The position numbers and the translations under genes were made by a program. The notes below the pieces were generated by a model. It did not search any database and was not told the origin of the DNA. It saw only the letters and a program-made list of their open reading frames with translations. Of a stretch of DNA of 64,000 nt, positions 9,901-21,859 are shown piece by piece (the first letter of the stretch is position 1; every line of letters starts with the position of its first letter). Source of the DNA: Kordiimonadales bacterium IMCC3096 (lineage in GTDB: Bacteria > Pseudomonadota > Alphaproteobacteria > Minwuiales > Minwuiaceae); the NCBI GenBank assembly GCA_016865035.1, contig CP018227.1:3754115-3818114 (forward strand). The letters run 5' to 3'.

Positions 9901-10521
9901 GTCATGTGCCCTGGCCAGCCGTGCCAGATGGTTGATCCGCGCCCGGTCGTCACCGCGATAGAGATATGTCGCCGCAATGTGGCTGAGACCGGGCAGATGC
10001 TGCACCAGACGCGGCAGCTCGGCGGCGAAGCGGTCCACGTCCGCCCCCGGCATGGCGATCAGCACCACCTGTGCCGGTTCGGTGCCCAGAGCCTCCGCCA
10101 CCATGGCCAGTGACAGGTCGCAGACACCCTTGCGCTGCCATTCCCCCGCCGCGTCCTGCATCTTGCCGGCGGAGAGCAGGGCACAGAGGCGCCCATAGCC
10201 TGCCCGGTCCTTCGGATAGGCCAGCAGGGACGGCGCATCCAGCAGGTCCAGACGACAGCCGATGACCGGGCGCAGGCCTGCCGTTGCCGCCTCCCCATGC
10301 ACCCGCACCGTTCCGGCCATGCTGTTGCGGTCGGCGATGCCCATGGCGTCATAGCCCAGCAGGTGTGCGGTCAGCACCAGATCAACCGGGTCCGAGGCCC
10401 CGCGCAGGAAGGAGAAGTTGGAGACCACGCCCAGCTCCACGAAGGCTGCGGGCGGGTTGGGGCGGAACGTGCCGGGGTCGCGGATCCGGCGCTTCTCCGG
10501 TGTCAGCGGGGCTTCCGGCAT
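6946..10521 (-). CDS. dnaE2: Error-prone DNA polymerase III alpha subunit DnaE2 (ImuC) with in-frame palindromic insert
   Basis: DnaE2 is the translesion polymerase of the SOS-induced ImuA-ImuB-DnaE2 mutasome and replaces the replicative alpha subunit at lesions. The 1191-residue protein begins with a PHP domain ([19 protein letters not shown]) and contains the catalytic palm motif [12 protein letters not shown] (about residue 400). The finger region ([21 protein letters not shown]), helix-hairpin-helix region ([14 protein letters not shown]) and C-terminal OB domain ([27 protein letters not shown]) follow. It is roughly 80-90 residues longer than typical because residues about 830-917, between the conserved SDWDNTLE and ALRLGLRQ motifs, are encoded largely by a palindromic repeat. 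The ATG overlaps the imuB stop (ATGA), showing translational coupling. Polymerase motifs look intact, so the protein may tolerate the insert. Confidence 0.96.
   Translation of the reverse strand: [1191 protein letters not shown]
7829..7964. repeat. Palindromic repeat element inserted in frame within dnaE2
   Basis: Two hairpins flank a longer imperfect inverted repeat. CCTTCCCCC (7829-7837) pairs with GGGGGAAGG (7843-7851), and CTTCCCCC (7944-7951) pairs with GGGGGAAG (7957-7964). Between them, GATGGGGGTGAA (7856-7867) is answered by TTCACCCCCCATC near 7915-7927, with one extra C. The whole unit is about 136 bases and reads in frame with dnaE2, encoding a Ser/Pro/Gly/Glu-rich peptide including [16 protein letters not shown]. 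The structure resembles mobile palindromic or MITE-like elements; coding insertions of this kind are known as Rickettsia palindromic elements. No second copy was noticed in this window. Confidence 0.75.
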
Positions 10522-12092
10522 CAGGCATCCAGCCCATGCATGAACCAGTGCGGGCTGCCGCCGCGTCCGTCACCGGCCACCCCCTCCCGATAGATCCAGT
10601 AGCGACGGCCGTCGCTGTCCTCCACATTGTAGTAGTCGCGCAGGCGCACGATGGATTTCTCCCGCCACCATTCCGGTGCAATCCGCTCCGGTCCGCCGCT
10701 GCGCACCACCCGATGGGTCTGGCGTCGCCAGATGAAACGCGCCGGGGGACCGTCGGGAATGGCGTGCAGCACCTCCACCTCCTCCGGTCGGGGCAGCAGC
10801 CGCAACGGGCGATGGGGGGGCGGAGACTCCGATGTTTCCGCCGACAGGGCCCGTGCTGCCGGGCGTGGCATGTCCGTATCCGCCGGAACCAGCATCTCCG
10901 CCCGCTCCGGCACATGGCTGCCGTGCCCCAGCGGCCGCAGCACCGACTGCCGCCCCAGTCGCGCGATCAGCCGGTCGATCAGCCGTGACAGGGCCACGCC
11001 GGTATCGGTTTCACCGCTCAGGTCGGGCTGCGTCAGGGCCAGGTCCTGGCCATCGATCACGTCCAGCACCATGACCTCGAACCCGAAGCCGGGATCAAAT
11101 GTTTCTATTTTGTTCTCGAACAGCCTTGCCAGATGCTCGGGTTCGCGGCTGGGACGGCTGGTGGCGACCTGGATGGCGGAGACCCCGCCATCGACACGAA
11201 ATCCGCTGAAACGCAGGCAGCGGGCGCCGATGTTGCGTGCCTCCATCTGTGTGGCCAGATCCTGCATCAGGTGGGTCAGCACATGGCTGAAGCTGTCGAT
11301 CTCCGTGATCGGTTCGGCCAGCGTACGCAGGCTGCGCAGCGGTTCCGTGATCGCGGCGGCGACCAGAGGCTCCGTGGTCCGGCCCATGGCCTGATCCAGC
11401 CGCGCCAGCGGATTGGCGGGCAGGGGCGTGCCATGGCGGAACCGCCGGGCCATGGCGGCACGGGGAATGTCGGCCAGCGCCGCGATGGTGCGAAGCCCCA
11501 GCCGTTCCAGCAGCAGCACCGTATGGCCATCCAGCCGCAGCGCCGCCACCGGCAGGGCACCCAGCCGTGCCGCCAGCCTGTCGGGCAGACAGGTCTCCAC
11601 CTTCTCCTGCCCGTGCCGGGCGAAGGCCCAGGCGCTGCCGACCGTCGGGGCGATGGCGATGTGCGCGGTCAGACCCAGTTGCGCGAAGGCCCGGCGCATG
11701 TCGGCGACCAGCGCCGCCTCCCCACCCCACAGGTGATCGGCCCCGGTGGTGTCGAGCATCAGCCCGTCCGCCCCGTCGGTCCGGGTCCAGGGGCACCAGC
11801 GTCGGCACCAGTGGGACAGGCGGGCCAGATCGGCGTGGTCCAGCCGTTCCTCCGCTTCCTCCACCCGCAGGTCGGGCACCAGGGTGCGCATGTCGGTGAC
11901 CCGCGCGCCGCGTGTCATGCCCAGCGCCACGGCGGCGGCATTCATGTCATGGATCACCGGGCCGTGGGGGCCGGGGCGGGCCAGCACGACCGGTTCGGTT
12001 TCAGCCGTCGCCTTCTCGCCGTAATGCCGCCGCCGCCAGCGCTGGATCGCGAAGTGGGGCAGCCAGATGGAGACGATGCGCCGTGCGGTCAT
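10521..12092 (-). CDS. imuB: ImuB, Y-family polymerase-like protein of the SOS mutasome
   Basis: ImuB is the Y-family polymerase homologue that links the beta clamp, ImuA and DnaE2 in damage-induced mutagenesis. It is generally considered catalytically inactive. This 523-residue protein starts MTARRIVSIWLPHFAIQRW and shows the Y-family fold (GLMLDTTGADHLWGGEAAL, IAIAPTVGSAWAFARHG, then the LERLGLRTIAALADIPRAAMARRF helix-hairpin-helix-like region). The usual Y-family acidic catalytic motif at the start is replaced by IWLPHF, in line with an inactive enzyme. The frame is open up to 12218, but ATG 12092 has a GGGAGGGGGG ribosome-binding stretch immediately upstream. It overlaps the end of imuA by 92 bases and couples to dnaE2 by ATGA. 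Confidence 0.93.
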   Translation of the reverse strand: MTARRIVSIWLPHFAIQRWRRRHYGEKATAETEPVVLARPGPHGPVIHDMNAAAVALGMTRGARVTDMRTLVPDLRVEEAEERLDHADLARLSHWCRRWCPWTRTDGADGLMLDTTGADHLWGGEAALVADMRRAFAQLGLTAHIAIAPTVGSAWAFARHGQEKVETCLPDRLAARLGALPVAALRLDGHTVLLLERLGLRTIAALADIPRAAMARRFRHGTPLPANPLARLDQAMGRTTEPLVAAAITEPLRSLRTLAEPITEIDSFSHVLTHLMQDLATQMEARNIGARCLRFSGFRVDGGVSAIQVATSRPSREPEHLARLFENKIETFDPGFGFEVMVLDVIDGQDLALTQPDLSGETDTGVALSRLIDRLIARLGRQSVLRPLGHGSHVPERAEMLVPADTDMPRPAARALSAETSESPPPHRPLRLLPRPEEVEVLHAIPDGPPARFIWRRQTHRVVRSGGPERIAPEWWREKSIVRLRDYYNVEDSDGRRYWIYREGVAGDGRGGSPHWFMHGLDA

Positions 12093-12768
12093 ATCCCCCC
12101 TCCCATGTACCGGGCCGCGCGTCGCGGGCGCGGAACAGTTCGGTGCGCCAGCGTGGCTCCCCCGGTGCGCGCGGATCGTGCGGGTGCGGGTGCGGGGCGG
12201 AGGCGGCGGAGGCCACACGCCAGCGCCGCCGCGCCACGGAGGCGCTGGCCACCGCGCCGCCGAAACGGATCAGGAAGGCAGGTATCCCCACCCGCTCCGA
12301 CCGCATTGCCAGGCGTTTCGTGGCGGTGAAGTCCAGCGCCTTCGGCTCGCCCCATATCTCTCCGATCACGGCACCAAGCGACGGGCATGCCAGACCCTCC
12401 TCCATTGTCCAGAGTACATCCCCCGCATGACGGGCGCAGGCCAGGATCAGCCTGTCCGGGTCGCCGCCGAAGCGGGCCAGCGCCCGGCCGTGGGGTTGCC
12501 CCACCTCCTGCGCGCACATGCGGTCCTGCACCCACAGAATCGACTGCGCGCGCGGTATCTGTGCCAGGGCGAAGCCCACCGCGCCGACATCCCGCGAGTC
12601 CGCGAAGACCTCCACCAGCTGCGGCTTTCCCGGCAGCGGTGGCGGCTGCATATCCGCTGTTCCGGACGGCCCCGCATCCTGCCGGTCCCGCGCCATGGCG
12701 TGCGGTTTCGGAGGCCGCAGACGGTCCGGAACAGGCGACAGGACAGATGTGTGATGGCGTGCATTCAT
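12001..12768 (-). CDS. imuA: ImuA, SOS mutasome accessory protein (SulA/RecA-like)
   Basis: ImuA is a RecA/SulA-related accessory protein of translesion synthesis with ImuB and DnaE2. The ORF shows the family core (VEVFADSRDVGAVGFALAQI, AQSILWVQDRMCAQEVGQPHG, then the PDRLILACARHAGDVLWTMEEGLACPSLGAVIGEIWG segment). The frame is open to ATG 12804, but the SOS operator at 12787-12801 would then be coding. ATG 12768, giving 255 residues, is therefore the better start, although it lacks a strong ribosome-binding site; ATG near 12696 is possible. The C-terminus runs about 28 residues past the usual end of the family (RWRTELFRARDARPGTWE) into the imuB reading region. It is the first gene of the operon. 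Confidence 0.85.
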   Translation of the reverse strand: MNARHHTSVLSPVPDRLRPPKPHAMARDRQDAGPSGTADMQPPPLPGKPQLVEVFADSRDVGAVGFALAQIPRAQSILWVQDRMCAQEVGQPHGRALARFGGDPDRLILACARHAGDVLWTMEEGLACPSLGAVIGEIWGEPKALDFTATKRLAMRSERVGIPAFLIRFGGAVASASVARRRWRVASAASAPHPHPHDPRAPGEPRWRTELFRARDARPGTWEGGYDRTAHRLHLAAPLRDPALAAAALRREGDG

Positions 12769-12870: not shown

Positions 12871-13947
12871 TCAGGACTTCAGCGTCACCATGTGATTGTC
12901 CCAGTTGATGTCTGGATAGGCATCGGCCTTGCCGCCAAGCAGGATCTCGCCCGTACCTGCCGTTGCCATGAAGCCGTCCCCTGTCGGGGCAATGCCGCAG
13001 GTATCGGCCAGGCTGACGGTCTCCAGAAAGGACCCGGAGCGACCGTCGAGCACGACAATGATTCCGCCGCGCGGGCTGGTGACGGCAATGCGCCGACCGT
13101 CAGGCGTCGCGGCGATGGAGCCTGCGTAATTGCGCATCGACCGGGTCACGGTGGCAGGCAGGTCGATCAGCCGGATTTCTCCATTCCGGTCCCAGCGCCC
13201 GATCAGCGGCGGTTGCTCGGTTGCCGCGCCCTGATGCTGGCAGCAGAACCAGGTGGCACCATCCGGTGTCGCCGCCAGGTGGCGCATGGACAGTTGATAG
13301 AGGGCAGGGGGCAGGCTGGCGCGCGCCAGCAGGTCGCCGGACGCGAGATCCAGCCGCACCAGCGTCGAAACCATGGTGTCCAGATTGAGCTTCCGCCGGG
13401 GCCAGTCCGGGTGCGTGAGGATGCCGCCGTTGGCGATGACCGCAGACCTGCCGTCATCCGCCAGCAGACATTCATGCGGGCCGATGCCGTGTGTCGCGAA
13501 CTCGCCGATGCGGCGATAGTCCTGACGGACATCATGCACGGCCAGTACGCCCCGCCCGGCATCGAAGTCATTCTGCGTCGCGAACAGCCGCTTCCCATCC
13601 GCGCTGAACAGGCCGTGGCCATAGAAATGACGGTCGGCAGGAAGCGGAAGCGGCGCAGACGCCTGCATCGTGGCCGGGCTGAAGGGAAGGGCGAAACGGC
13701 CAGGACGGCGGGCAAAGGCCACGGCGTGGTGACCGTCGCGGCTGACGGCGAAACCGTGCCCCCGGCCGGGCAGCGGCACGTCGCCGAGGATGTGCCCGGC
13801 CCCGTCCAGAGCCATCGCATGAAACCGGCCGTCCCGCCGCCCGGTGGTCAGGAATGCCGGGGGCGCAGGCGCACCTGCGATGGCCTGGCCCAATGGCAGG
13901 GCCGTGCAGAACAGACCCAGCAGTACCGATCGCCGATCAGTCGCCAT
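12871..13947 (-). CDS. DUF1513 protein, secreted beta-propeller-like, iron-locus member
   Basis: This protein of about 358 residues has an N-terminal MATDRRSVLLGLFCTALPLG that looks like a Tat-type signal peptide (RR followed by a hydrophobic run). The remainder contains repeated GHGFAVSRDGHHAVAFARRPGR, GLFSADGKRLFATQND and AATPDGRRIAVTSPRGG segments, typical of a WD40-like or NHL-like propeller. It matches the DUF1513 family, which commonly accompanies imelysin and di-haem oxidoreductase genes. The start is taken at ATG 13947 (ATG 13956 is an alternative), overlapping the imelysin stop by 11 bases. The frame is open further upstream, but that would read through the imelysin gene. It is the last gene of the minus-strand iron-type operon. 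Its biochemical role is unknown. Confidence 0.85.
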   Translation of the reverse strand: MATDRRSVLLGLFCTALPLGQAIAGAPAPPAFLTTGRRDGRFHAMALDGAGHILGDVPLPGRGHGFAVSRDGHHAVAFARRPGRFALPFSPATMQASAPLPLPADRHFYGHGLFSADGKRLFATQNDFDAGRGVLAVHDVRQDYRRIGEFATHGIGPHECLLADDGRSAVIANGGILTHPDWPRRKLNLDTMVSTLVRLDLASGDLLARASLPPALYQLSMRHLAATPDGATWFCCQHQGAATEQPPLIGRWDRNGEIRLIDLPATVTRSMRNYAGSIAATPDGRRIAVTSPRGGIIVVLDGRSGSFLETVSLADTCGIAPTGDGFMATAGTGEILLGGKADAYPDINWDNHMVTLKS

Positions 13948-15022
13948 CGAGTGCATTGAACCCCCTGACCAGACCCAGCGCAGGCAGCAGCCGCGTGTCG
14001 TGCAGATCGACGGCGGCCTGCAGCGGGATGCGGGCATACTGCAGCAGGTCGTGCGTTGCCGGATTGGCGATCCGCGCTGCGATCCCGCCGGGAAAGTCGA
14101 GCGCGGTACGGATCGCGGCTTCCGACTGGCCCAGCTCGAAATCCAGTTCCCGGAACAGGTTCAGCAGATCAGGGTTGTCCAGGTCAGGCATGTCGGGATG
14201 GGTGAGCACGGCGCGACTGGCGGCAATGTTCACGGCCACGGCGCGCAGCGTCATGCCGGACAGGCGGAAGGGAGCGGACAGCGGGTTGGCACTTGCAGGG
14301 CCATCCCGCAGCACGCGCCCGAGTTTCTGCTGCTCGACGATGATCAGTTGTTCCATTGCCGCCTTCAGCAGGGTCTTCAGCGCTTCGCCCTGATCGCGGT
14401 AGAGCGGGTTCTCCGGTCCAGGCCGGCGCAGCAAACCTGCCTGACCGTCGCGCCAGCCGTTCAGCAGGGCCTCTGCGGTTTCATGGGTTACATCGGCAAT
14501 GGCTGTGCCGTAGCGGCAGGCGAAATCGGGGATCATCCCACCGTCAGCCTCCGCCAGCACCTGTTCGAGGGCCGAAAGCCCCTGCACGGCGACACTCTTG
14601 CCCCTCAGCGTTGCGGGATCAGTGGCGGTCTGGTCCTGCTCCTGCAGGATCCGGCGTACCTGCCGCATTCCGAGTCCGCGCCTGTCGGGCCAGAAGTTGA
14701 GGCGGGCGAGGCGGTTGTCTTCCCGCCCCGGACCGAAGCGATACATCTCCACCCGGGAGAAGGCGGTGACCAGATCGCGAAAGGCTGCCTGCGCATCCGA
14801 CAGGGTATCGGCCGACGGCGTCGCGCAAGCCGCGCGCATGGTGCGCTGCTGATCCGCCGTTGCCTGCACCAGGGCTGCGTGATCGGGCAGTATCGTTTCC
14901 GCCAGTATCGTCCCGACCAGCCGTTTCTGAAGTGCCGCCTGGGCGGGTGTCGTGTCGGCCAGTGCGGGCGTGAGGCAGGCGAGCGCGAGGCCGGCAAGCA
15001 GGAATACCGACGGCAGGCGCAT
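13937..15022 (-). CDS. Imelysin-family periplasmic protein, variant motif
   Basis: This 361-residue protein begins with a signal peptide (MRLPSVFLLAGLALACLTPALA) and then the all-helical imelysin (peptidase M75-like) domain: QAAFRDLVTAFSRVEMYRFGP, NFWPDRRGLG and the central region SVAVQGLSALEQVL. The canonical GxHxxE motif of IrpA-type imelysins reads GLSALE here, so the histidine is replaced by serine, as in the second imelysin subfamily that travels with DUF1111 proteins. It likely acts in the periplasm in iron handling, by family and context. Its ATG overlaps the stop of the di-haem oxidoreductase gene (ATGA), and its end overlaps the DUF1513 gene, so the three are translationally coupled. 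Confidence 0.88.
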   Translation of the reverse strand: MRLPSVFLLAGLALACLTPALADTTPAQAALQKRLVGTILAETILPDHAALVQATADQQRTMRAACATPSADTLSDAQAAFRDLVTAFSRVEMYRFGPGREDNRLARLNFWPDRRGLGMRQVRRILQEQDQTATDPATLRGKSVAVQGLSALEQVLAEADGGMIPDFACRYGTAIADVTHETAEALLNGWRDGQAGLLRRPGPENPLYRDQGEALKTLLKAAMEQLIIVEQQKLGRVLRDGPASANPLSAPFRLSGMTLRAVAVNIAASRAVLTHPDMPDLDNPDLLNLFRELDFELGQSEAAIRTALDFPGGIAARIANPATHDLLQYARIPLQAAVDLHDTRLLPALGLVRGFNALDGD

Positions 15023-16578
15023 CAGAGTGACTCCAGGAACCGGATCAGGGCGGCGCGGTCTTCGGGCGACATGTCGACCACTGTTTCGCGAGCCTGTTCC
15101 GCCTCCCCACCGTGCCACAGGATGGCTTCCAGCAGGTTCCGCGCCCGCCCGTCGTGCAGGAAGTATGTGTGGCCGTTCACCGTTTCGGTCAGGCCGATGC
15201 CCCACAGCGGGGCGGTGCGCCATTCGCGCCCCGACGCACTGCCGACCGGTCGGTTGTCGGCCAGTCCTTCGCCCATGTCATGCAGCAGCAGGTCGGTGAA
15301 GGGCCAGATGAGCTGAAACCGGTGTTCGGCGACCGGCGCGTCGCGCCGCGTGACGAATTTCGGATGATGGCAACTGGCGCAGCCGGTCTCGTGAAACAGC
15401 CGCTTGCCCTTCAGCACCGTCGGGTCGGAAACATCGCGCCGGGCCGGAACCGCGAGGTTGCGTGCATAGTGGGCGATCAGGGGCAGCACCGGGTCCGGTG
15501 CCTCTGTTTCACCCAGGCGCGCCTGCACGCCTGTGGCCATCTGCAGGCAAGGTGACTCGGCCTGGGTGCAGTCACCGTGGTGGCGCGGGGCGAGGGGGCT
15601 TGAAACACCGATATCGCCCGCCAGCGCGTCGGCGCTCTGCTGCGCCACGGTCGGATTGCCGGCCTTCCAGCCGAACCGGCCAAGTGTTTCACCGCCAGTC
15701 GCGGCATCCCGCACGATGCTGACCCGGCCGGAGATGCCGTCACCGTCCCGGTCATCGGGGTCGGCCAGGGCGTGAATGTCGTCCGGGTGAATGGCCTCCA
15801 GCAGGCCCAGCCCGATCATCTGCGGTGCGACACGCGGGGAAAGCAGTGTCTCCGGGTGCAGCGGGCCGAATGCGGGATCGCCGACACTGTAGGTGGGATG
15901 CCGCAGGGACGCCGTTTCACCACCGGAAAGGCTGACAGCCTCCTCCCTGTAGCGGATGACCATGCGCCCTTCGGCAGGCAGCCCCGGTACGGCGAAATCC
16001 TGCAACTGGCCGCCGTAGGTGGGTTCGGGCAGGGAGGCCACGGCACCGGAGGCGATCAGCGCCCGCTCCGCGTCCGTCTGCGGCGGAACCGACAGGCGCA
16101 GGAACATCGAAGTTGCGTTGCGTTCACCGGCTTCCGGCGGATGGCCGCGCCCGTCCTTCAGGTGGCAGCGCTGGCAGGAGCGCGCGTTGTACAATGGTCC
16201 CAGACCATCGGATGCCTGGGTGGAGGAGGGGGAGGAGACCCAGAGCTTGCGGAACAGCGCATTGCCCAGCTTGAAGTCCCGCTCCCCTTCAAAGTCCAGG
16301 TTGGCGGATGAATGGGAGAACGCATTGCCATCCGGCGTCTTGCGCGATGTCGCTGCACCACCGGCCATCATCTCGAACGGTTCGGCCTGGGTGAAGCTCG
16401 CGGGGGGCGCGGTCACCGCCCGGAAACGTGCCAGGTCCTTCTGTGTCAGATCACTGCGGCCCGGAGAATCGGCGACGGCCGGTGCAGCAGGGAGACCCAG
16501 GAACAGGCCTGACAGCACGGCGGCCGCGATGGCTCCGGTGCGCGTTCCGGAGGTTCGGGACCAGGGGCGCAGTTGCAT
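15022..16578 (-). CDS. Di-haem oxidoreductase (DUF1111, thiol oxidoreductase family)
   Basis: This 518-residue exported protein has a hydrophobic signal segment (IAAAVLSGLFLGLPAAPAVADS) and two c-type haem motifs. CQRCH occurs in NARSCQRCHLKDGRGHPP, and CASCH in FHETGCASCHHPKFVTR near the C-terminus. This is the layout of the DUF1111 or di-haem oxidoreductase family found beside imelysins. A calcium-type loop, DPDDRDGDGISG, is also visible. In the iron locus it could change the redox state of iron or a periplasmic partner; that is inference. The frame is open to 16698, but ATG 16578 is nearest to the signal peptide. Its stop overlaps the following imelysin start. A strong hairpin lies in the 243-base gap upstream. 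Confidence 0.9.
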   Translation of the reverse strand: MQLRPWSRTSGTRTGAIAAAVLSGLFLGLPAAPAVADSPGRSDLTQKDLARFRAVTAPPASFTQAEPFEMMAGGAATSRKTPDGNAFSHSSANLDFEGERDFKLGNALFRKLWVSSPSSTQASDGLGPLYNARSCQRCHLKDGRGHPPEAGERNATSMFLRLSVPPQTDAERALIASGAVASLPEPTYGGQLQDFAVPGLPAEGRMVIRYREEAVSLSGGETASLRHPTYSVGDPAFGPLHPETLLSPRVAPQMIGLGLLEAIHPDDIHALADPDDRDGDGISGRVSIVRDAATGGETLGRFGWKAGNPTVAQQSADALAGDIGVSSPLAPRHHGDCTQAESPCLQMATGVQARLGETEAPDPVLPLIAHYARNLAVPARRDVSDPTVLKGKRLFHETGCASCHHPKFVTRRDAPVAEHRFQLIWPFTDLLLHDMGEGLADNRPVGSASGREWRTAPLWGIGLTETVNGHTYFLHDGRARNLLEAILWHGGEAEQARETVVDMSPEDRAALIRFLESL

Positions 16579-16821: not shown

Positions 16822-18099
16822 TTACTGGAAGACCGCGCCGGGGTTATCCAGGCTGTCGGAGCCTTCGAACTGGATGGTCTGCAGCTTCAGCGCTGCCACG
16901 ATCCGCTCGATGCTCCGGGTCTGGTCGATCAGGCCGTCGATCGCGGCCTGCACCGTGGCGTTGCCCACCGGATTGCCCTCCGCGATCATCTGGTCATAGG
17001 CCTCGATGGATTCCGCGCGGGCCTTCATGACCGCCATGGACGCAACAGTCGTGTCCAGCCTGGCACGCAGTTCCGCATCCAGTTTCGGGGCGACGTGGGC
17101 CACGACATCCGCCACGGACGGGCCGGAGACCACTGAGCCGTCCACACGGCGATAGTGCCCGGTATAGACATTCCTGATGCCGATTTGATCGAAGTAGTGC
17201 GAGTTGTGCGTGTTGTCGGAGAAGCAGTCGTGCTCCTCCTCCGGGTCATGCAGCATCAGGCCGAGCTTCATCCGCTCACCGGCCAGCTCGCCGTAGGACA
17301 GCGATCCCATGCCGGTCAGGATGACCGAAAGGCCTGCCTGCGGATCCTGCAGCAAGGCCTGGCGTGACGCGCCGTCGGCACCCCAGCTTGCCACCATGTC
17401 CTGCAGATCGCTGATCAGCAGGTCGGTCGCCGCCGTCAGATAGGCGATCCGCCGGTCGCAGTTGCCGCCCGTGCAGTTGGCGAGATCGAAATCCGTGGCG
17501 GGACGCTGCCCGGCACCGGCGCCGGTGCCGTTCAGGTCCTGGCCCCAGAGCAGGAACTCGATGGCGTGATAGCCGGTGGCGACGTTGGATTCGACCTCTT
17601 CCGCCTCATGCAGCGTATCCGACAGCAGGGCAGGGGTGATCAGGGTCGCGTCCACCTGCTGGCCATTGACGGTCAGCATCGGGTTGGCGATCACGTTGCT
17701 GGTGTAGAGACGGTTTTCGCCCGCCGCGTCGCCATAGGACGTGTCGACATAGTCGATCAGCCCCTCATCCAGCGGCCAGGCATTGACCTTGCCTTCCCAG
17801 TCATCGACCGAGGCATTGCCGAAGCGAAAGGCCTCCGTCTGCTGATAGGGGGCGCGTGCGGCCACCCAGGCTGCACGTGCCGCCCCGAGCGAAGCCTCCG
17901 ACGGTTTCGCGATCAGGGCGTTGATCGCGGCGCGCAGGGCCTATGCCGTGGTCAGGGAATCGCTGTAGCCGGCGAGCGCGATGTCGGCATAGGTTCCCAC
18001 CACGGCCTCGGCCGTTGGTGCCTCATCCGCGTTGGCGATGCCGGCGGACAGGCCCATGGCCATTCCGCACAGCAGTCCGGTAGCTCTCGTGAGTCTCAT
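16822..18099 (-). pseudogene. Imelysin (IrpA-like) gene with in-frame amber stop at codon 53
   Basis: Reading from ATG 18099 gives a signal peptide (MRLTRATGLLCGMAMGLSAG) and the start of an imelysin domain. TAG then falls at 17941-17943 (codon 53), after which the same frame continues unbroken to 16822, for 426 codons in all, the usual family length. The post-stop part has the hallmark GYHAIEFLLWGQDL, containing GxHxxE, and normal coding character. The change looks like CAG (Gln) to TAG. No other lesion is seen, so it may be a recent mutation, a sequencing error, or a gene with readthrough or reinitiation. GTG 17865 is the first in-frame restart, but it would lack an export signal. It lies between the barrel protein and the di-haem gene in the iron-type operon. 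Confidence 0.8.
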
Positions 18100-18139: not shown

Positions 18140-19228
18140 TCAGAATTCAATGCCGTAGGTGACGATGGCGCCCAGGGTCTGGGTGCTGATGTTGGCTGCC
18201 GTGGCGCGCTTGTAGCCGACGTCCAGCGTGAAGCCGTTCTCGAAGGCATAGCCGGCGGAAAGCTGCACCTGGTGATCGAAGGTGGAGCCATTGGCACCGT
18301 CCACGTTCACATCCTTGGCGGTACCGGCCAGCGCCACGTTCCACGGGCCGGTCTCGGCCACCAGTGACAGCGTGTAGTAGTTGCGGCTCTCCGCCCCCAG
18401 GCCGCCGGCGTTCCAGAAGCGGACATATTCGGCCATCGGCGTCAGAGTGAGATCGTCACCCAGATCATAGGACCATTCGGCACCGGCGGTGGCCCGCAAC
18501 TCGTCGTCGGCGTTGTTCACGGCCAGACGGGCGAAGCCCACGTGATAGCGCATGCCCTCCATGCCCGGCACGGCCTCACCGTCCAGCGCGACCGCGAAGG
18601 ATTCCGGGAACTCGGTATTGCCCGGTCCGCCTGCCGCCAGGTTGTTGCGGCCCCGGTTGGTGATGAAGGATTCGCTCAGGAAGGTGCGATCCTGGAAGAA
18701 CACGCTGCCCGACAGGACCATGGAGTCACCGACGGCGAAGGCACCGCCCGCGCCGATGAATTCCGACAGTTCCACATCATCGCCCAGCAGGTCGGTGCCA
18801 TAGACACCGCCAGCGGCGTCATAGCCGATGGAGAAGTTGGGGCCGAACTTGCCGCCATGGACTTCCACATCGTCGTTGGCCCAGGTCAGCACCAGCGTGT
18901 CGACAAAGATGCCATGATCCTGGAACACCCGGTCCTCCCGGGGGCCGGGGCCGCGCACCGCCTCCAGCGTCATGCCGGTGGTCAGGGTTAGGTTGGGATT
19001 GAAGTTCAGGTTGATGACCGGCTCGATGACACCGCCAAGCTCGTTCTGTTCGGCATTCGGATCTTCGGACTCGAAGTTGAAGTCGTTCTGGACCTCGAAA
19101 CCGACTTCGCCCGTGATGTTCGGATAGGCTTCATCTTCGGCAAGGGCCGCCAGCGGCATGATCGTGAGGCCGAACGCAGTGGCCATGGCTGCCTGCCTGA
19201 TGCGGGCGTTGTTCGTGAGAGTCGACAT
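18140..19228 (-). CDS. Outer-membrane beta-barrel (porin-like) protein, first gene of iron-type operon
   Basis: This 362-residue protein carries an N-terminal export signal (AAMATAFGLTIMPLAALA) followed by alternating amphipathic strands rich in Gly, Tyr, Phe and Asp. It ends in aromatic YGIEF, the terminal phenylalanine recognised by the outer-membrane assembly machinery. Acidic loops (EDPNAEQNE, DDVELSE) might bind cations. The start is ATG 19228 (MSTLTNNARI); the frame remains open upstream to 19318 without support. It precedes the amber-interrupted imelysin by 40 bases and lies directly downstream of two Fur-like palindromes. A role as outer-membrane entry path for iron in this locus is inference. 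No TonB box or plug domain is seen, so it is not a TonB-dependent receptor. Confidence 0.8.
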   Translation of the reverse strand: MSTLTNNARIRQAAMATAFGLTIMPLAALAEDEAYPNITGEVGFEVQNDFNFESEDPNAEQNELGGVIEPVINLNFNPNLTLTTGMTLEAVRGPGPREDRVFQDHGIFVDTLVLTWANDDVEVHGGKFGPNFSIGYDAAGGVYGTDLLGDDVELSEFIGAGGAFAVGDSMVLSGSVFFQDRTFLSESFITNRGRNNLAAGGPGNTEFPESFAVALDGEAVPGMEGMRYHVGFARLAVNNADDELRATAGAEWSYDLGDDLTLTPMAEYVRFWNAGGLGAESRNYYTLSLVAETGPWNVALAGTAKDVNVDGANGSTFDHQVQLSAGYAFENGFTLDVGYKRATAANISTQTLGAIVTYGIEF

Positions 19229-19318: not shown

Positions 19319-19338
19319 TTGCTAATAATCATTCGCAA
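19319..19338 (-). promoter_or_regulatory. Putative Fur-type operator 1
   Basis: TTGCTAATAATCATTCGCAA is an imperfect palindrome with TTGC/GCAA ends and an AATAATCATT core, close to the Fur consensus core (ATAATNATTAT). It lies about 90 bases upstream of the barrel gene start. Assignment to Fur rather than another iron regulator is inference. Confidence 0.4.
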
Positions 19339-19349
19339 CAAGAAGCTTA

Positions 19350-19368
19350 ATTGAGAATGAGTGTCAAT
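19350..19368 (-). promoter_or_regulatory. Putative Fur-type operator 2
   Basis: ATTGAGAATGAGTGTCAAT is a 19-base site, the length of a Fur box, with ATTGA/TCAAT ends and the GAATGA core common in iron boxes. On the minus strand a TTGACA hexamer sits inside it, so binding would cover the -35 of the barrel-imelysin operon promoter. Confidence 0.45.
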
Positions 19369-20899: not shown

Positions 20900-20931
20900 A
20901 GGGGGGGGTAAAGGCCGCGCTGGATTAGTAT

Positions 20932-21784
20932 CTAGGGCTGAGACTCAATCACAGCCGGAATGCAACGAGGACGGCAATGGCGACAGCGGAGAGGAAGTTT
21001 CTCGCCAGCTTGTCTTAGGGGGTGTGGACGCGCCGGAAGTCCTTGATGCGGCAGAAGGCATTCTCGATCAGATGGCGCTCTCGGTAGCGTTGCTTGTCAT
21101 AGACGATCTTTCGCTTCCTGTTGATGCGTCCTGGCATGATGGGAATTACGCCGCTTTGGCGAAGCTCTCTTCGGATCGCGTTGGCGTCGTAGCCCTTGTC
21201 GGCCAGCAGCCTCCGGGCGCCTGCCAATCTGTTGAAGAGTAACCGCGCCGCCTTCGCATCCGAGACATTTCCAGCCGTCAGCTCGAAGGCATAGGGGCGG
21301 CCTATTGTGTCTGTGAGCGCGTGGACCTTCGTCGTCTGACCACCTCGTGAAGGCCCGATCGCCTGCGACCTTGCCCCCTTTTCCGCCGTGGGCCGAACGA
21401 TGCGCCTTGATGTAAGTGCTATAATGGCGCTCGAAGTCGACACCGCGCCAGTCGCGGCCAGGGCCTCCGTCAGGTCCGTCCAGAAGCGGCGGCGTGGCCA
21501 ATGATCGAAGAGATTGTAGATCGTCGTCGAAGGACCGTACTCGGCAGGGCAGTCACACTAGCGGCAACCCGTCTTCAGAACATGAATGATCCCGGAGATC
21601 GCACGGCGATCATCGACGCGCCTCGCACCAGGCTGGCTTTTCGGCACGTGCGGCTCAATCGCCGCCCATTGCGCATCCTCAAGCCAAAAAAGTCGGGCCA
21701 TCCCAATCCTGCAGAGCGAAACATGTACATAGAGAAACAGCCCGTTCCCGCAACTTCAATGCGTTGATTGGGCTTAGACCCTAG
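20932..21784 (-). mobile_element. Decayed IS5-family (IS427-type) insertion sequence
   Basis: An element of about 853 bases is bounded by CTAG on both sides (20932-20935 and 21781-21784), the typical target of this group. The ends are imperfect inverted repeats: left CTAGGGCTGAGACTCAATCA against right, read inward, CTAGGGTCTAAGCCCAATCA. It contains one degenerate transposase on the minus strand. It lies between the acyl-CoA dehydrogenase and the FAD oxidoreductase gene and interrupts neither. Confidence 0.85.
20949..21701 (-). pseudogene. IS5-family transposase, inactivated
   Basis: Conceptual translation from ATG 21701 gives an IS5/IS427-type start (MARLFWLEDAQWAAIEPHVP). The C-terminal DDE region follows: SRGGQTTKVHALTDTIGRP, LLADKGYDANAIR and the RYRERHLIENAFCRIKDFRR signature with the catalytic Glu. 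Inactivating changes are TAG in place of a Trp codon at codon 48 (21558-21560) and TAA near the C-terminus (21015-21017). A pair of compensating frameshifts also lies around 21380-21450, where the conserved DFERHYSTYIKAHRSAHGGKGG segment reads in a different frame. It is not functional as it stands. Confidence 0.88.
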
Positions 21785-21859
21785 ATGATTCTGGTCAGCA
21801 TCTTTCCCCTGACGAAATCGGACTGGACTTGGCTATGGCGGGCACCGCAATCCCCACCC

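Follow-up and report, generated by a model that had tools for sequence, protein, structure and literature searches.

Is an imelysin gene that carries a stop codon near its start a gene recently lost, a gene still expressed by readthrough, or a gene misread? The window (the whole 64,000-nucleotide stretch of DNA analysed here) holds such a case on its minus strand. The first-pass annotation had named all three options, and we here weigh them against the frame itself, its neighbours, its orthologues and the record of selection on it.

An amber codon in an otherwise intact imelysin frame

The features of the interrupted gene, imel1, are as follows.

17941-17943, minus strand: in-frame amber codon (codon 53), read directly from the letters
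16822-18099, minus strand: interrupted imelysin imel1 (Peptidase_M75, GxHxxE type), from PF09375 (302.8 bits) and 7xrx (E 4.6e-116)
17941-18099, minus strand: product expected from termination at the TAG, a 52-residue peptide made up of the signal peptide and about 28 further residues, from translation
16822-17865, minus strand: longest ORF after the stop with an ATG, GTG or TTG start, 347 aa from a GTG, from the ORF list

The plus strand reads CTA at 17941-17943, that is, TAG on the minus strand, and a search of the whole single-contig genome recovered the identical TAG. Translation of 16822-18099 yields a frame of 425 residues that contains the stop at codon 53, the terminal stop and no further damage. 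The first-pass description of an imelysin frame intact but for this codon, with a signal peptide before the stop and the GxHxxE hallmark after it, thus agrees with our reading: judged by eye, about the first 24 residues are signal-like, and GYHAIE, an instance of GxHxxE, lies 3′ of the TAG. With the TAG taken as a residue, the Pfam model Peptidase_M75 (PF09375) matches residues 41-396 at 302.8 bits (E 3.8e-90), above the curated cut-off of 23.5 bits. Among solved chains, the frame hits 7xrx (Insulin-cleaving metalloproteinase outer membrane protein; E 4.6e-116), which we take to be a P. aeruginosa protein. The score against the NCBIfam LruB equivalog model, 136.5 bits, is far below its cut-off of 850, and we therefore do not call the gene LruB.

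Both sides of the stop align to intact 1275-base orthologues of equal length in two relatives (G001, 94% protein identity; G002, 93%), which argues against two ORFs lying together by chance. Only two M75 genes were found in a search of the genome, the other being of the GxxxxE type, so the interrupted gene is the only GxHxxE imelysin found there. Restart of translation downstream was considered and rejected: the GTG at 17865 lies within the mature protein, no signal peptide was seen by eye in the ORF that it opens, and the product would not be secreted.

The iron-type cluster around the gene

What is the setting of this gene? In the order of transcription, the cluster runs porin-like gene, imel1, di-haem oxidoreductase (DHOR), imel2 and DUF1513 gene.

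19320-19367, minus strand: two putative Fur-like elements upstream of the cluster, from alignment of upstream DNA
18140-19228, minus strand: porin-like outer-membrane protein, intact, at the head of the cluster, named from its appearance only
15022-16578, minus strand: DHOR, intact (PF06537, E 7.6e-93 for the containing 558-aa ORF)
13937-15022, minus strand: imel2, second imelysin, with GLSALE as its GxxxxE variant, intact (PF09375, E 7.9e-35 for the containing 428-aa ORF)
12871-13947, minus strand: DUF1513 protein, intact and free of internal stops (PF07433, E 5.7e-106 for the containing 388-aa ORF)

Gene order and Pfam matches bear out the earlier view that imel1 comes first among the imelysins of an iron-type cluster. 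The porin-like gene itself has no Pfam or NCBIfam match; its orthologues are uninterrupted in G001, G002 and G005, and G004 has a full-length match. The starts of DHOR and the DUF1513 gene were placed to agree with those in G001 and G002, two relatives in which imel2 is, as in the window, uninterrupted. Of the upstream elements, which presumably resemble Fur sites, that at 19348-19367 is well conserved in the window's own genome (G000), G001, G002 and G005, and that at 19320-19338 less so; neither is recognisable in G004.

Adjoining the cluster, 10521-12218 on the minus strand encodes an impB/mucB/samB (Y-family polymerase-like) protein (PF00817, E 2.7e-8), and this DNA is conserved in G001, G002 and G004. 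A probable insertion sequence lies at about 20930-21785, where an ORF at 21015-21443 on the minus strand matches the DDE transposase model PF01609 over profile positions 32-178 of 200 and is thus incomplete in this frame; no inverted repeat of at least 14 bases was found around it, and parts of it have matches at several contig ends of G004.

Codon 53 in other genomes

Orthologues were sought in a sample of 96 genomes, the window's own included and one genome per species, of which 17 have an imel1 match. Among the six same-genus relatives, three carry clear orthologues without internal stops (G001 and G002, and G005 at 82% identity), and in the other three no orthologue was found (G003 and G006; G004 holds only a stub). 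Codon 53 was aligned in 15 of the 16 other matching genomes, leaving aside G022 (L018, a partial match of 38% identity) and the weak second matches L019 and L020. None of the 15 has a stop there; the equivalent codons are GAA, GAG, CAG, GAA, CGT, CAG, CGC, AAG, AAA, AAG, AAG, CGG, AAG, GGT and GGG. The same holds for orthologues from named genomes, a set that may partly overlap with the 15 and may lack near records: in the best 80 of at least 588 confirmed relatives, all 80 of which were examined, the frame is open from before the position through the match, with no stop at codon 53 (0/80) and with K in 42, Q in 19, E in 11, R in 6 and V and M in one each. As an example of possible overlap between the two sets, L009 and L087 sit on equally long contigs. 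A candidate parallel amber in the orthologue of G083 was discarded: that TAG falls at residue 387 of a 390-residue match and is therefore taken as the gene's own terminal stop.

From which codon did the TAG arise? The first-pass annotation had favoured a change from CAG as the simplest path, a suggestion that the relatives do not support, as the two closest have Glu codons (GAG in G001, the nearest by dS, and GAA in G002) and only the more distant G005 has CAG. A Glu ancestor therefore appears more parsimonious, with a CAG ancestor possible.

Dispensability of the cluster in the genus

The pattern of presence and absence suggests that the whole cluster is not essential to these bacteria. DHOR occurs in four of the seven same-genus genomes, the window's own included, and the cluster is absent from the other three. 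In G003 and G006, neither imel1 nor DHOR was found. G004 keeps both flanks and the porin-like gene (72% protein identity) when aligned to the window, and its matches to DHOR, imel2 and the DUF1513 protein are only at chance level (E 0.32 or more). Its sole imel1 match is short, lies just after the porin-like gene and has an E of 0.23 when taken alone; at about 3131-3199 of L156 (G004:C6:193500-202500) it encodes a stub of 23 residues, 15 of which agree with those of the imelysin signal peptide, and its alignment score of 80 compares with no more than 45 when this DNA was base-shuffled 500 times. A stub in this position, beside a retained porin-like gene, marks the deletion of most of the cluster. 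Together with the retained flanks, it shows at least one loss by deletion in the genus, separate from the amber codon, and the cluster looks dispensable in the genus.

Selection on the interrupted frame

How long has the stop been there? In imel1, dN/dS is 0.098 between the window's genome and G001 and 0.062 between it and G002, as compared with 0.056 between G001 and G002; the corresponding values for DHOR are 0.165 against G001 and 0.129 against G002. Measured against the more distant G005, imel1 gives 0.189 for the window's genome, 0.159 for G002 and 0.199 for G001, and these similar values do not set the window's genome apart. Changes were also assigned to branches, G005 serving as outgroup and codon 53 being left out of the counts. 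On the branch of the window's genome, imel1 has 9 nonsynonymous and 20 synonymous changes. A wholly neutral branch would be expected to hold 45-57 nonsynonymous changes, a range obtained with transition weights of our own choosing, 4 to 1, together with 1.5-2 further stops; none of the latter is seen. Since 9 nonsynonymous changes stand against 45-57 expected, the share of the branch without constraint is estimated at 10-13%, with a Poisson upper bound of 25-32%. Selection on imel1 thus does not appear clearly relaxed on this branch, and dN/dS and branch counts together suggest that the stop is either very recent or not real, that is, a sequence error.

Old, misread or read through?

That the loss is old and the gene only looks intact is the least credible of the readings considered, with very little probability left to it. 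A weak nonsynonymous excess on the branch of the window's genome, 9:20 as compared with 11:62 for the two relatives together (Fisher p 0.096), would fit an old loss; however, the intact DHOR (13:28) and porin-like gene (19:31) have ratios on the same branch at least as high as that of imel1, dN/dS remains below 0.1 against the two nearest relatives, the frame is free of frameshifts, and the extra stops that full neutrality predicts are missing. A base error is a more serious matter. The TAG could come from a wrong base call, from misassembly or from a mutation that became fixed in the sequenced culture alone, in a species whose gene is intact, and to this we give a minor yet real share of the probability. 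Apparently unbroken selection and the lack of a second lesion favour it, a lone substitution with no other decay is exactly how a base-call error would be expected to look, and the intact copies in other species are compatible with it. Artefacts are moreover reported to account for many of the internal-stop pseudogenes in public assemblies (PMC11017572). Against it, internal stops were seen in just one of 161 sampled domain matches of this genome, 0/97 for ABC-ATPases (150 of 163 candidates scored) and 1/64 for SDR proteins, in a count that covers stops within domain matches and is blind to frameshifts. False stops therefore do not seem to be common in the assembly, with a single one possible. 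Furthermore, five neighbours are uninterrupted (the genes for the porin-like protein, DHOR, imel2, DUF1513 and an acyl-CoA dehydrogenase), and the lesion is a substitution and not an indel. A base error is the main rival to a young pseudogene. As a separate observation, the SDR-family match with an internal TAA (G000:C1:3533711-3534148) may be a second pseudogene in the genome.

Alternatively, the TAG might be read through, by leakiness of the amber or by a suppressor tRNA, with full-length imelysin still being made. Purifying selection is still visible over imel1, and codon 53 encodes K, Q, E or R in 78 of the best 80 of at least 588 orthologues, suggesting that several residues would be tolerated. 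A recent mutation accounts equally well for the selection signal, however, and other observations speak against readthrough: RF1 is present (a prfA model match above the cut-off), and TAG terminates 5 of 53 ORFs in the window, which were picked by a composition heuristic and are in some cases wrong (one is antisense to imel2). The earlier statement that TAG is a normal stop here is consistent with both observations. No tRNA with a CTA anticodon is among 47 ARAGORN hits (41 loci, covering 42 Rfam tRNA matches), some tRNAs being counted twice in overlapping stretches; this survey is incomplete, as Ile-GAT, Ala-TGC and Leu-CAA, all expected in such a genome, are also missing from it. Codon reassignment was rejected given RF1, and a suppressor tRNA is considered unlikely given the lack of a CTA anticodon in that incomplete survey. 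Nor is the amber conserved in orthologues (absent from 15/15, and from 80/80 of the best 80 of at least 588). As RF1 is present, TAG ends other ORFs, no CTA tRNA was found and the amber is unshared, programmed readthrough of imel1 is unlikely, and we regard readthrough of any kind as improbable. A narrower version, in which the amber is real and leaky and a small, perhaps iron- or growth-dependent yield of full-length imelysin keeps up selection past the stop, is a shade less probable still.

A very young pseudogene as the best reading

What remains is the first of the three options, and it is the one that we prefer: with no clear relaxation of selection, no second lesion and intact relatives, a very recent nonsense mutation has probably knocked out the second gene of the iron-type cluster, which encodes the canonical GxHxxE imelysin. 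Translation would then halt after 52 residues, some 24 of them signal peptide, so that no imelysin domain would be made, and an iron-related function would be lost, possibly with some polarity on the downstream genes. The window's genome may accordingly be at the outset of a loss like that in G004. Speaking against a pseudogene, the porin-like gene, DHOR, imel2 and the DUF1513 gene are all still intact. The stop in the sequence, the intact relatives, the selection signature and the absence and stub in relatives are all observed; we infer that the living strain truly carries the stop, that readthrough is absent and that the iron-related function has been lost. The finding is of an ordinary kind. 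At most, it catches an iron-uptake-type cluster just as its loss begins, the cluster being one already deleted in a sister species, and might tell at what point imelysin systems become dispensable; if the stop is instead an assembly error, the locus counsels caution in interpreting single-stop pseudogenes.

Comparison with known systems

The arrangement is reminiscent of the P. aeruginosa PA4370-PA4373 operon, which encodes an EfeB-like (di-haem, DUF1111) protein along with two that are imelysin-like, the first with GxHxxE and the second belonging to a family in which the histidine is not conserved (PMC3143127). Here, too, the genes for an imelysin, a di-haem protein and a GxxxxE imelysin are adjacent. 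In contrast to that operon, the cluster opens with a porin-like gene and its first imelysin carries the TAG; the term DUF1513 does not occur in PMC3143127. As a lesion, imel1 resembles the young bacterial pseudogenes that carry a single nonsense mutation, having one in-frame stop, an otherwise intact frame, no clear relaxation and intact relatives. What it adds is that a sister species has separately deleted most of the same cluster.
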